A stretch of DNA of 64,000 nt from Aeromicrobium sp. Root472D3 (lineage in GTDB: Bacteria > Actinomycetota > Actinomycetes > Propionibacteriales > Nocardioidaceae), in assembly GCF_001426485.1 (NCBI RefSeq), contig NZ_LMET01000001.1:1974505-2038504 (forward strand), in the 5' to 3' direction. A program made the translations under genes and the position numbers. Shown here in pieces: positions 8,579 through 31,290 of the stretch. The notes below the pieces were generated by a model. The model made no database searches. It was not told the origin of the DNA and worked only from the letters and a program-made list of their open reading frames with translations. Positions within the stretch are counted from its first letter, which is position 1; each line of letters begins with the position of its first letter.

Positions 8579-9565
8579 TCAGGCGGGCACGTGGTCGATG
8601 CCGGCGGCGCGGCACACGTACGTCCACACCGACCGGCGCGCGTCGGGGTCGTCGGCCCTGCCCGGCAGGAAGTACGTCGAGCGCGGACGGCGGTCGCTCC
8701 AGAAGCGTCCGCTCGTGCGGGTCGCGAGGGGTGACGCCGTGAGCCACACGATCGTGTCGGCGCCCTGCTCGGCGGTCCGCAGGATCGGTCCGATGACCTT
8801 GGCGAACCGCGGCATCGACTCCGTGACGCCCGGGGTGTCGGCCCAGCCCGGGTGCATGCTGTGCACGACGATGCCGTCGGCGGAGTACCGCTTGGCCATC
8901 AGCTCGGTCATCGTGACCTGGATGCGCTTGGTGCGCGCGTACGCGCGGATGCCCTCGTAGCGCCCGCGCCGGTACTCGATGTCGTCGCCGATCGAGGCGT
9001 CGAGGGGGGCCGAGTACATGCCGCCCGACGACACGATCACGACGCGCGGCGCCTCGGCGGCTGCCAGCGTCTCGCGCAGCAGCTCGGTCAGCAGGAGCGG
9101 TCCGATCGCGTGGGTCGCGAGCGCGAGCTCGTGGCCCTGGTCGGTCTCGGTGCGCTCGGGCGGCATGACGCCGGCGTCGTGGACGATCGCGTGCAGGGCC
9201 CCGACGTCCTTGGTCAGGGCCGCGGCGTAGGCGCGGACCGAGTCGAGGTCGCTGACGTCGCAGACCTCCTCGACGAGCTGCGCGTCGGGCACGTCGCGGC
9301 GGACCAGGTCGGCGGAGTCGCGCAGGCGATCGGCGTCGCGGCCGACGAGGTGGACGGTGGCGCCCAGACGGGCGATGCCGGTCGCGGCGGCGCGTCCGAG
9401 GCCGCTGCTGCCGCCCGTCACGACGACGTGGCGGCCGACCAGGGCCTGCGGGTCGGGGTCGTCGGCCCACCAGCGACGGCGCAGCGCCGGGCCGATCGCC
9501 GAGTAGCCGCCGATGAGGGACTTGTCGAGGACGGTGTCGACGACGGACGTCAGGGGAGAGGCCAT
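8579..9565 (-). CDS. Short-chain dehydrogenase/reductase, extended N-terminus
   Basis: A 328-residue NAD(P)-dependent oxidoreductase. The cofactor motif TGGSSGLG begins near residue 50, after a hydrophilic extension that includes RRRWWADDP. The usual NNAG is replaced by HDAGV, an altered first position. The catalytic serines are in VVIVSSGG, and the YARTK motif supplies the Tyr and Lys. The HPGWADTPG segment resembles eukaryotic DHRS12-like proteins. The substrate is unknown. It is convergent with the amine oxidase, with a single base between the stops. The start at 9565 is supported by TACCGT 6 bases upstream (leaderless). Confidence 0.82.
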   Translation of the reverse strand: MASPLTSVVDTVLDKSLIGGYSAIGPALRRRWWADDPDPQALVGRHVVVTGGSSGLGRAAATGIARLGATVHLVGRDADRLRDSADLVRRDVPDAQLVEEVCDVSDLDSVRAYAAALTKDVGALHAIVHDAGVMPPERTETDQGHELALATHAIGPLLLTELLRETLAAAEAPRVVIVSSGGMYSAPLDASIGDDIEYRRGRYEGIRAYARTKRIQVTMTELMAKRYSADGIVVHSMHPGWADTPGVTESMPRFAKVIGPILRTAEQGADTIVWLTASPLATRTSGRFWSDRRPRSTYFLPGRADDPDARRSVWTYVCRAAGIDHVPA

Positions 9566-9571
9566 GCCCCC

Positions 9572-9577
9572 ACGGTA
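9572..9577 (-). promoter_or_regulatory. Leaderless-type -10 hexamer for the SDR gene
   Basis: TACCGT on the minus strand, 6 bases before the ATG at 9565. Confidence 0.5.
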
Positions 9578-9593
9578 GGCGGGGACGAAAGCA

Positions 9594-9630
9594 GATGCAT
9601 CGTCACCGGCATGTGGTCACGACGCCTCAT
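9594..9630. repeat. Palindromic repeat copy 1 flanking the DUF559-like gene
   Basis: The word GATGCATCGTCACCGG is followed by a pyrimidine and ATGTGGTC. The same string recurs at 10609-10645, on the other side of the gene. The repeat is itself an imperfect palindrome (GATGCATC at one end, GATGC/GACGC at the other). The 3' end of the gene reads through part of it. Confidence 0.6.
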
Positions 9631-10511
9631 GGTCGCGAGGCATCAGGTTTCGTCCAGCCCCGGGCGAGGAAGAGGCGCACGAGCTGGTCGCCGACCTCCG
9701 CCCTCTGGCGTCGCACGGAGAACGACGAGAACGCGAGCAGGCGCCGTCCTCCGATGACGATCTCGTTCGCGCGGGTCAGGTCGGTGCTCCACTGCTCGGC
9801 CTCCAGGTGACCCACGCCGTGCACCTCGACGGCGATGTCCCACTCGTCCCACGTCGCATCGAGGTAGAAGCGGCCGTCAGAGCCCTTCGCCCTCGCCTGA
9901 CGGGTGGGAGCGGGCAGGCCCACCGACCGGCGGACGTCGTCGAAGTCGCGCTCGGGCAACGACTGGATGCCGCCGACGGCGTCGAGGACCGACTCGACGA
10001 TGAGGGCGCGCCGACGGCACGGTCCACGACGCTGCAGTGCCTCCCGCACGGTGCGGGCCGACACGAGGCCCTGCTGGAGCGCGGCGATGACGTAGGTGCG
10101 TGCCGCCCGGTCGCTGGGCGCCCAGCTCGCGGCGTCGACGAGCGACCGAGCCGTGCGAGTGCGGCGTGGTTCGTGGGTCGGGTGCACGTCCTCGTGGTCG
10201 AGTCGCGTCGACCAGTGGAAGACGGCGTCGTGCTGGGGGCGCCGGGCACCTTCGGGCAGCACGACCCAGGTCGTGGTCTGCCCGAAGCCCTTCAGGCGAT
10301 CCCGTTCGAGTGCCGTCAGGCCACCCAGCGCGGACGCCGGTGGTGCGAGGCACAGCGCCAGCTCCTGCTGCTCGCGTCGGTCGAGCTCGCGGTTGTGCGT
10401 GACGACGACACCTCGGGCGGGCCGGCGCCACTGGCCGCGCCGCACGCGCCACCGGACGGTGGCGGCGCCGAAGGCCGTGTCGGCCTCCGCGCTCCGGAAC
10501 ACGGTTCTCAT
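9627..10511 (-). CDS. DUF559-like protein with Vsr/PDDEXK-type C-terminal domain
   Basis: A 294-residue protein of a type common in actinobacterial genomes. The N-terminal part has RRGQWRRPARGVVVTHN, similar to AbiEi-like winged-helix leader regions. The C-terminal third (YLDATWDEWDIAVEVHG, then NEIVIGGRRLLAFSSFSVR) resembles the Vsr/DUF559 nuclease-like core, with a D-x(n)-ExxG pattern. No catalytic activity is proven. The start at 10511 follows CAGCAT at 6 bases (leaderless). Copies of a palindromic repeat lie on both sides, and a second, broken copy of the C-terminus lies at 31090-31290, which suggests a family that moves or duplicates. The biological role is unknown. Confidence 0.6.
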   Translation of the reverse strand: MRTVFRSAEADTAFGAATVRWRVRRGQWRRPARGVVVTHNRELDRREQQELALCLAPPASALGGLTALERDRLKGFGQTTTWVVLPEGARRPQHDAVFHWSTRLDHEDVHPTHEPRRTRTARSLVDAASWAPSDRAARTYVIAALQQGLVSARTVREALQRRGPCRRRALIVESVLDAVGGIQSLPERDFDDVRRSVGLPAPTRQARAKGSDGRFYLDATWDEWDIAVEVHGVGHLEAEQWSTDLTRANEIVIGGRRLLAFSSFSVRRQRAEVGDQLVRLFLARGWTKPDASRP

Positions 10512-10517
10512 GGCGCG

Positions 10518-10523
10518 ATGCTG
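10518..10523 (-). promoter_or_regulatory. Leaderless-type -10 hexamer for the DUF559-like gene
   Basis: CAGCAT on the minus strand, 6 bases before the ATG at 10511. Confidence 0.4.
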
Positions 10524-10601
10524 GCGCGGGCCCCCACCCGACCGCGCCCCTCGTCGTCCCGCCTGAGGACATCTGACGACCCGCGGGGCCCTGTGGACCC
10601 A

Positions 10602-10648
10602 CGAAACCTGATGCATCGTCACCGGTATGTGGTCGTGATGCATCAGCT
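10602..10648. repeat. Palindromic repeat copy 2 flanking the DUF559-like gene
   Basis: CTGATGCATC (10608-10617) and GATGCATCAG (10637-10646) are perfect inverted arms around a 19-base centre. The leading CGAAACCTGATGC also occurs, inverted, at the 3' end of the DUF559-like gene (9640-9652). The copy lies between that gene and the response regulator gene. Confidence 0.6.
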
Positions 10649-10656
10649 CTCGTCGG

Positions 10657-11337
10657 CTAGAGCAGGCCGGCCTCGTGCATCGCGATCGCGACCTGGACGC
10701 GGTTGGTCGCGCCGAGCTTGGTGAACAGGTGCGAGATGTGCGCCTTCACGGTCGCGACGCTCATGTGCAGCGAGACGGCGATCTCGGCGTTCGACGCGCC
10801 GCGGCCGATCGCCACCGCGACCTCGCGCTCGCGGTCGGTCAGGCACGCGACGCGCTCGAGGGCCTGCCCCGCGCGCACGTCGGGCACGGCGTCGGTCACC
10901 TGACGGATCAGCTGCTCGGTGATCGCGGGCGACAGCATCGGCTCGCCGGCGACGACCCGCGCGACGGCATCGACGATGTCGGCGGGCGGCGTGTCCTTCA
11001 GGAGGAAGCCGTTGGCGCCCGCCGCGAGCGCCCGGACGACGTACTCGTCGGCGTCGAACGTCGTCAGCACGATGACCTTCGGCGCGTCGGGCAGCGCGAC
11101 GAGCGCGGCGGTCGCGGCGATGCCGTCCATGACCGGCATGCGGATGTCCATCAGGACGAGGTCGATGCCCCCGGCCCGCACGCGGCGCACCGCCTCCTGG
11201 CCGTCCGAGGCCTCGCCGACGACGTCGATCGTGGAGGAGCCGCCCAGGATCATCGCCAGCCCGGCCCGCACGAGCGCGTCGTCGTCGGCGAGCAGCACCC
11301 GGATCGGTGCGTCCGTGCCCGGCCCCGCTCCCGTCAC
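10657..11337 (-). CDS. NarL/LuxR-family response regulator
   Basis: A 226-residue DNA-binding regulator. The receiver domain (residues 12-130) has the acidic pair DDD near 18-20, the phospho-acceptor Asp64 in LVLMDIRMP, and the LLKD lysine. The C-terminal HTH reads LTDREREVAVAIGRGASNAE followed by SVATVKAHISHLFTKL. GTG at 11337 overlaps the kinase stop (GTGA), which sets the start; the longer frame runs inside the kinase gene. It is the cognate partner of the kinase and most likely controls the divergent ABC exporter. Confidence 0.9.
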   Translation of the reverse strand: MTGAGPGTDAPIRVLLADDDALVRAGLAMILGGSSTIDVVGEASDGQEAVRRVRAGGIDLVLMDIRMPVMDGIAATAALVALPDAPKVIVLTTFDADEYVVRALAAGANGFLLKDTPPADIVDAVARVVAGEPMLSPAITEQLIRQVTDAVPDVRAGQALERVACLTDREREVAVAIGRGASNAEIAVSLHMSVATVKAHISHLFTKLGATNRVQVAIAMHEAGLL

Positions 11338-31079: not shown

Positions 31080-31089
31080 GTCGTCCGTC

Positions 31090-31290
31090 CCAGCCGGCGC
31101 TGCGGAGCAGGCGGGTGAGCTGGTCGGCGACCCGCGCCTGCTCGTGACGGGTCGAGCACGACGTGAACGCGACGAGTCGCGGGCCGGTGATGACGACCTC
31201 GTTGCACACCACGCTGTGGACACGACGGACCCTGAGACAAGAGGGTCGCCCTGGCGACCCGAATGCCTCAGGCTTCGTCACGCCCCGGGC
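31090..31290 (-). pseudogene. Broken copy of the DUF559-like gene C-terminus
   Basis: On the minus strand, codons 31090-31203 encode NEVVITGPRLVAFTSCSTR and continue to SAGW. They align without gaps to the end of the protein at 9627-10511, with 21 of 38 residues identical by my count. A second short match (CTCGCCCGGGGC, then TGACGAAGCCTGA) at 31266-31293 mirrors the extreme 3' end of that gene, so two C-terminal pieces lie in tandem. The N-terminal two thirds are absent. This is the remnant of an earlier insertion or duplication of the same family. Confidence 0.55.
31243..31260. terminator. Hairpin between convergent kinase and response regulator genes
   Basis: GGGTCGCC, CT, GGCGACCC: 8-bp perfect arms. 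Located 35 bases after the regulator stop on the minus strand. Confidence 0.4.

Follow-up and report, generated by a model that had tools for sequence, protein, structure and literature searches.

A palindrome-flanked gene for a predicted AbiEi-nuclease fusion protein in Aeromicrobium: a candidate REP/RAYT-like cassette family

Background

Does a single nuclease-like gene that lies between two copies of a palindrome constitute a small mobile unit, or is it an ordinary gene with hairpins at its ends? The question is raised by a locus of Aeromicrobium sp. Root472D3, which was analysed within a stretch of 64,000 nucleotides (contig NZ_LMET01000001.1, positions 1,974,505 to 2,038,504), hereafter called the window. 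An earlier note on this DNA had described a DUF559-like gene bracketed by palindromic repeats and likened the arrangement to REP/RAYT-type or homing systems. The cassette, the encoded protein, the relatives of both and the palindromes found away from genes are considered in turn below, and window coordinates are given unless a locus or contig is named.

The cassette in the window

The whole cassette (palindrome, gene, box, palindrome) occupies positions 9583-10656. The gene, which is supported by the homolog alignment, is located at 9627-10511 on the minus strand and encodes a protein of 294 aa. Its neighbours are a gene for a short-chain dehydrogenase and a gene for a LuxR-type response regulator, the latter followed by a histidine kinase gene. 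The claim that the gene lies between two copies of one palindrome was borne out by three observations. An exact 25-mer, GATGCATCGTCACCGGNATGTGGTC, is present at 9594-9618 and at 10610-10634 and has exactly two occurrences in the 3.7 Mb genome; a direct repeat of 45 nt (9585-9629 and 10601-10645) is 84% identical; and the single-stranded DNA of both elements folds better than shuffled sequence, with z of -4.26 for 9583-9655 and, for 10598-10656, of -3.98 on one strand and -4.89 on the other. The arms CTGATGCATC (10608-10617) and GATGCATCAG (10637-10646) are, on direct reading, the perfect ten-base complements that had been reported, and the palindrome sequence was also rightly said to form the 3' end of the gene, where it is present as an inverted copy. 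The extent of the elements had to be revised: the element placed at 10602-10648 is present, but its bounds are 10598-10656, ending beside the stop codon of the response regulator gene, and those of the left element are 9583-9655, with arms of 25 nt that are 80% complementary and a course that overlaps the stop codon of the cassette gene. When up to three mismatches were allowed, the 25-mer was found at one further place in the genome, C1:2047879, about 9 kb past the end of the window, which by eye is a solo palindrome. An Rfam search gave a single match, to a microRNA family, with a score well under the gathering threshold.

A box, GTCCACAG, stands upstream of the gene at 10591-10598 on the minus strand, on the gene side of the upstream palindrome, and was assigned from its position and from the enrichment of CTGTGGAC across related loci. 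This sequence or its complement was found within 160 nt upstream of the gene at 40 of 81 loci, compared with 12 of 1000 stretches in one control set and 2 of 640 in another. The shorter motif TCCACA is present upstream in 29/29 selected Aeromicrobium loci, with 40 of its 45 instances at -85 to -88 or -56 to -59, and cassettes of this genus have one or two TCCACAG boxes, often two about 29 nt apart, that separate the gene from its upstream palindrome. The box is constant across loci whose palindromes differ. Its TCCACAG core presumably resembles the actinobacterial DnaA box, and expression of the gene could conceivably be linked to replication through it.

The encoded protein

The protein is predicted to consist of an AbiEi-type unit fused to a nuclease of the Vsr/EDxHD/DUF559 kind. 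An AlphaFold2 model was computed from 36 aligned homologs and had a mean pLDDT of 89.6 and a pTM of 0.66. In this model, residues 1-180 (9972-10511, minus strand) form a predicted DNA-binding part that resembles the AbiEi antitoxin 6y8q_A (Z 12.2, rmsd 3.6, 171 aligned residues; Foldseek E 1.1e-5) and Rv2827c (Z 9.0, rmsd 4.4, 177 aligned residues). The PADLOC AbiEi profile matched the protein with an E of 1.7e-7, and the only Pfam match for the protein was AbiEi_4, below its cut-off (E 0.011).

The predicted nuclease domain spans residues 172-288 (9648-9998, minus strand). The C-terminal part was also modelled alone (pLDDT 82.6), and this model resembles the catalytic domain of I-Bth0305I (Z 11.3, rmsd 2.8, 96 aligned residues), the endonuclease-like protein 3hrl (Z 11.3, rmsd 2.5, 92 aligned residues), which was matched by profile as well (E 4.2e-4), and Vsr 1cw0 (Z 9.9, rmsd 3.2, 109 aligned residues). 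The DUF559-like label is therefore kept for the predicted C-terminal fold, which matches a DUF559 protein, but not for the Pfam assignment: DUF559 was not matched over its Pfam cut-off by the window protein, and was matched at E <=0.01 by 7 of the 36 aligned relatives. Residues E187, D218, E229, H235, D244 and R247 are among 11 columns that are invariant in 36/36 homologs, and the first five of these would correspond to the EDxHD letters of a putative active site. The dN/dS ratio was 0.06-0.28 in 13 chosen homolog pairs, so the gene is under purifying selection.

Distribution of the family and of its flanking palindromes

Of 58 genomes, 38 contained homologs, as did 6 of 12 further same-genus genomes. 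A wider set of 45 loci includes Mumia, Nocardioides, Micromonospora, Janibacter, Ruania and Phycicoccus, together with one record labelled Spirochaetaceae that is perhaps a misbinned contig. For each locus the upstream flank was compared with the downstream flank by a similarity score with a threshold of 20. A repeat on both sides of the gene (score of at least 20) was obtained at 64 of 82 loci, a count that leaves out 12 of the 45 wider loci, taken as duplicates on the basis of contig and length, and that includes one pair (L168 and L174) with shared DNA. The same threshold was reached at 1 of 400 control positions in the window and at 0 of 119 positions in the same loci, and the control positions with the highest scores, around 60 kb, fall within two similar stretches resembling a duplicated coding domain. 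Six of the 18 misses scored 18 to 19.5, and when 16 of the 18 were rescored with longer flanks, two passed (L163 and L175). Among 12 extra loci from the further same-genus genomes, 10 reached 20; only 6 of these 12 are new DNA, of which 5 passed. Of 21 upstream hairpins at hand-picked loci, 14 had their start at -135 to -150 relative to the start codon, and downstream hairpins often overlap or abut the stop codon.

The pairing of gene and palindrome is cognate. The median repeat similarity was 0.57 for proteins with at least 75% identity, 0.17 for those with 60-75% and 0.11-0.12 below that. Over 2145 pairs, which drew on 66 of 78 loci, the correlation between protein and repeat similarity was weak (Spearman 0.149) and was reached in 0 of 999 permutations. 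Repeat similarity thus tracks protein identity, and a palindrome is common to close proteins only. Gene copies within one genome are distinct, the highest identity among 35 within-genome pairs being 69%; the gene is not amplified inside individual genomes, which disfavours an ordinary transposon.

It had been suggested that other DUF559-like genes be checked for the same flanks. Relatives usually carry palindromes of their own, as the flank test shows, and so does L001, a DUF559 gene of the window's genome (G000:C2, about 335.5 kb). This locus scored 31.5, and the other Pfam-DUF559 gene of that genome scored 11.0. L001 is flanked by a direct repeat of 39 nt (L001 positions 1430-1490 and 2470-2510), the left copy of which lies within a palindrome, ...GCGGAGAAGCGGAC...GTCCGCTTCTCCGC. 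Because of this palindrome and score, the two Pfam-DUF559 genes of the window's genome are not clean negatives. At least one more distant DUF559 gene also has a palindrome, so the limits of the family are provisional.

Gene-free sites and cassette turnover

The DNA of the dehydrogenase gene was matched to some degree in 45 genomes, and the best 23 regions were compared. The gene is present in two of them (the window's genome and G003); in 19 both neighbours are kept and there is no gene, and the remaining two have another neighbour and no gene. Empty sites in relatives, which the earlier note had proposed to look for, were therefore found in 19 of 23 orthologous regions, and the gene is not at the same place in all relatives. 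Three of the 19 gene-free regions hold another hairpin, as judged by eye. In the intergenic DNA between the dehydrogenase (SDR) and regulator genes of G034 and G008 (L037 and L038), a hairpin of the form GTGACG...CGTCAC was seen by eye at the site of the window's cassette.

A second locus is bounded by ndk and a gene of unknown function. There a cassette is present in all four genomes of a related group, and the cassettes differ between close species. The flanks of this locus are 97% identical between G005 and G029; on the left the identity reaches the stop codon of the neighbouring gene, and on the other side it comes within a few bases of the ndk stop codon. The cassettes between these flanks differ. 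One gene type, with CTGCGTTC palindromes, is present in G005 and G019, and another, with palindromes of the CTTCTTCC/CTTCTCCC type, in G029 and G065. In the gene tree L022 pairs with L024 (support 100/94) and L026 with L248 (98/88), contrary to the similarities of the flanks; for L026 and L248 the gene dS is 0.88, and the flanks are 94-95% identical. From these comparisons the locus is read here as a probable case of cassette exchange. A conceivable alternative is that the two types descend from an old tandem pair by differential loss.

A relic of another family cassette was recognised by sequence comparison at 31083-31281 of the window (minus strand). It retains roughly the last 41 codons of a gene of the L066 type together with a CTGTGGAC box (31214) and one palindrome (31225-31281), and it adjoins a response-regulator gene. 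An intact cassette, L066, is located beside the same regulator gene in G008. Four dispersed palindrome sites in other genomes were also aligned, and the element was present in some species and absent or divergent in others. At two of the four, the element is present in one species and the corresponding intergenic DNA of the rest is unalignable; at the third, a part of it occurs in a second species and a different palindrome in another; at the fourth, the element is common to the three aligned genomes. No match for two query proteins was found in 72,556 plasmid records, and 1 of 50,697 phage records was matched, weakly and partially.

Palindromes dispersed outside the gene

Two palindrome families were counted in 49 same-genus genomes. 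For the first, the pattern GACNGANGATGAGGGTTNNNGGNNGC was searched with one mismatch allowed; its matches represent half-sites, and gene flanks are included. It was matched in 12 of the 49 genomes, and the reversed pattern gave 0 matches in all 49. The counts were 60 in G012, 20 in G035, 19 in G030, 17 in G003, 15 in G008, 12 in G015, 6 in G011, 5 each in G021 and G013, and 1 each in G026, G002 and G064; all five matches in G021 are the gene's own flanks. The gene clade that has this palindrome (6 rows, support 99/98) is found in G035, G021, G012, G030, G008 and G003. At least five matches were present in all 6 clade carriers and in 3 of the 43 non-carriers (Fisher p 6e-6, without correction for relatedness). 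Among these three non-carriers, G011 has a gene, L016, with a near variant of the palindrome, and in G013 and G015, both fragmented assemblies, copies of the pattern are present and no homolog was found.

The second family, CTGCGTTC...GGATCC, gave 38, 44, 34 and 58 matches in G005, G019, G029 and G065, respectively, a single match in each of G013 and G064, and none in the remaining 43 genomes; with two mismatches, 73 to 106 matches were obtained in each of the first four. These four are related genomes, and the family is abundant in these 4 of 49 only. G029 and G065 have many copies, yet their gene at the shared ndk locus is of the other type. The dispersed unit of this family looks composite by eye, with outer half-arms GACGCA..TTCTGCGTTC around an inner palindrome and a length of about 130 nt, as seen at L186, L192 and L193 (locus positions of about 1440-1600; G019, G065 and G005).

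The window's own palindrome family is sparse, with one remote copy in its own genome and three other places in G003. One more match in the window's genome, at C1:2820792, resembles matches in three other genomes and was regarded as unrelated sequence. The palindrome copies are non-coding: coding periodicity was detected in 0 of 60 palindrome segments, which include 10 gene-flanking copies and several overlapping pairs, versus 83% of 180 control segments. Only 5 of 14 solo copies best matched the gene flanks of their own genome, and 6 further solo copies, outside these 14, are in genomes without that gene clade.

Dispersal thus occurs mainly with the gene clade. Wide occurrence of the repeat without a DUF559 neighbour, which had been named as evidence against a mobile unit, applies in part: gene-distant copies exist, but in both tested families they come mostly from genomes that carry the cognate clade or from near kin. 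The Y1 transposase profile PF01797 was matched in 0 of 49 same-genus genomes versus 5 of 14 control genomes, which disfavours RAYT-driven REPs as the source of these palindromes.

Proposed mechanism and alternatives

The reading preferred here, to which an even chance is given, is a nuclease-based system that resembles REP/RAYT, in which the protein would bind and cut its palindrome and repair would spread palindromes and swap cassettes. The family consists of cassettes with one gene between two copies of a cognate palindrome, each about 50-60 nt long. Dimers of the protein would bind its own palindrome by means of the AbiEi-like part, and the Vsr/EDxHD domain would cut at or near the palindrome. 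Repair that copies from another palindrome or cassette would carry palindromes to intergenic sites, and would also exchange whole cassettes at a locus, whereby palindromes and gene would persist together. Since the AbiEi-nuclease fusion is usually found beside a palindrome of 50-60 nt, dimer binding and cutting at that place would be the simplest interpretation. One report describes AbiEi as binding an inverted repeat upstream of its own gene, with arms of up to 23 bp and 4 mismatches (PMC3985639), and another describes I-Bth0305I as dimerising on a target of nearly 60 bp (PMC3943268). Several results weigh against the preferred reading: the 18 of 82 loci below the flank threshold, the single remote copy in the window's genome, the first-family copies in G013 and G015, the many second-family copies in G029 and G065 despite their other gene type at ndk, the restriction of the G021 matches to gene flanks, the low share of solo copies (5 of 14) that best match the gene flanks of their own genome, and the weak overall correlation between protein and repeat similarity.

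The comparison with a REP/RAYT- or homing-like unit is partly supported. For such a unit built on a predicted nuclease, gene-free sites, own palindromes at 64 of 82 loci, two dispersed families and the cassette difference at the ndk locus give good support in outline, and the enzyme may be what mobilises the palindromes. A more general proposal, rated somewhat below even, is that actinobacteria harbour a form of selfish DNA in which a single AbiEi-EDxHD nuclease, acting without a transposase, has as its target a cognate palindrome of about 55 bp, propagates this palindrome outside genes in the manner of REPINs and causes rival cassettes at shared loci to be replaced, the specificities of protein and palindrome changing together.

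Among the alternatives, the one that survives best, though it is unlikely, treats the palindromes as operators. They would be sites for autorepression by the AbiEi-like part, solo copies would be operators of a regulon, and the nuclease would have a separate task. The start of the upstream palindrome at -135 to -150 in 14 of 21 hand-picked hairpins would suit such a role, as would the autoregulation of AbiEi through an inverted repeat upstream of its gene (PMC3985639). The second copy at the 3' end of the gene in most loci, the tandem clusters, the tens of copies per genome and the joint replacement of gene and palindromes at the ndk locus are poorly accommodated by it.

Decidedly less probable is a role in defence or addiction, whereby the nuclease would attack foreign or unmarked DNA and the palindromes would mark self, or trigger or control the nuclease. 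It is consistent with the PADLOC AbiEi matches, with the variation of gene and palindromes between constant flanks at one locus, as defence genes can vary, and with the place of AbiEi as half of an abortive-infection toxin-antitoxin pair (PMC3985639). The neighbours of the window gene, a dehydrogenase and a response regulator, include no toxin partner, however, and neither defence nor addiction by itself accounts for the dispersal of the palindromes.

Equally improbable in our estimate is mobilisation by some other transposase, in which case the palindromes would be non-autonomous elements and the nuclease gene cargo or a hitch-hiker between two copies. Copies without the cognate gene type in some genomes agree with this, and among mobile elements the search covered Y1 transposases only; against it stand the own palindrome of each gene clade and the same layout in several genera. 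That the elements are terminators or chance hairpins beside a fast-evolving gene is very improbable: they do lie at gene ends, and some unrelated hairpins are present in the flanks too, but the same sequence on both sides far above controls (64 of 82 loci), the clade-specific dispersal and the lack of any T-tract terminator in 9400-10900 of the window disfavour both chance repeats and simple terminators.

Relation to known systems and significance

The nuclease-based reading invites comparison with REPINs and RAYTs, with which the family shares a gene flanked by palindromes (64 of 82 loci) that are also dispersed outside genes (two families), distinct gene copies in a genome, each with its own palindrome class, and rarity on plasmids and phages (two plasmid queries; one weak phage match). 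RAYTs are described as distinct and as single-copy in each genome (PMC3116915). The family differs in the enzyme, which here is an unrelated predicted AbiEi-nuclease fusion; as the Y1 transposase that defines RAYTs was matched in none of the 49 genomes (PF01797), the family is not a member of REPIN/RAYT.

The likeness to AbiEi antitoxins of type IV toxin-antitoxin systems lies in the predicted fold of residues 1-180 and in the AbiEi profile matches, and AbiEi itself is described as binding a long inverted repeat (PMC3985639). Here, in contrast, a nuclease is predicted to be fused to this unit, the palindromes are on both sides and dispersed, and no nucleotidyltransferase toxin AbiEii is adjacent at the window locus. 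With I-Bth0305I, Vsr and DUF559 nucleases the protein shares the predicted fold of the catalytic domain, the 3hrl profile match and the conserved acidic and histidine residues; it differs in having cognate palindromes and an AbiEi-like part, and its gene is not in an intron or in another gene. We know of no palindrome partner for I-Bth0305I, Vsr or DUF559 nucleases. The gene-free sites and the cassette difference within constant flanks are compatible with a homing endonuclease gene and do not amount to proof of one. Among the papers listed in searches of an open-access library, which holds few subscription papers or preprints, none was seen to pair a DUF559, AbiEi or EDxHD gene with its own palindromes.

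The only dedicated partner enzyme for dispersed bacterial palindromes of which we are aware is the Y1 transposase RAYT. If the proposal is true, a second, unrelated enzyme would have palindrome families of its own, and such repeat populations would have arisen more than once. Dozens of natural protein-palindrome pairs would then be at hand for studying the joint change of a nuclease and its target, and a role would be found for the AbiEi/DUF559 genes and hairpins whose recurrence in actinobacterial genomes has had no explanation. Should the nuclease prove to mobilise the palindromes, the family would form a class of its own.
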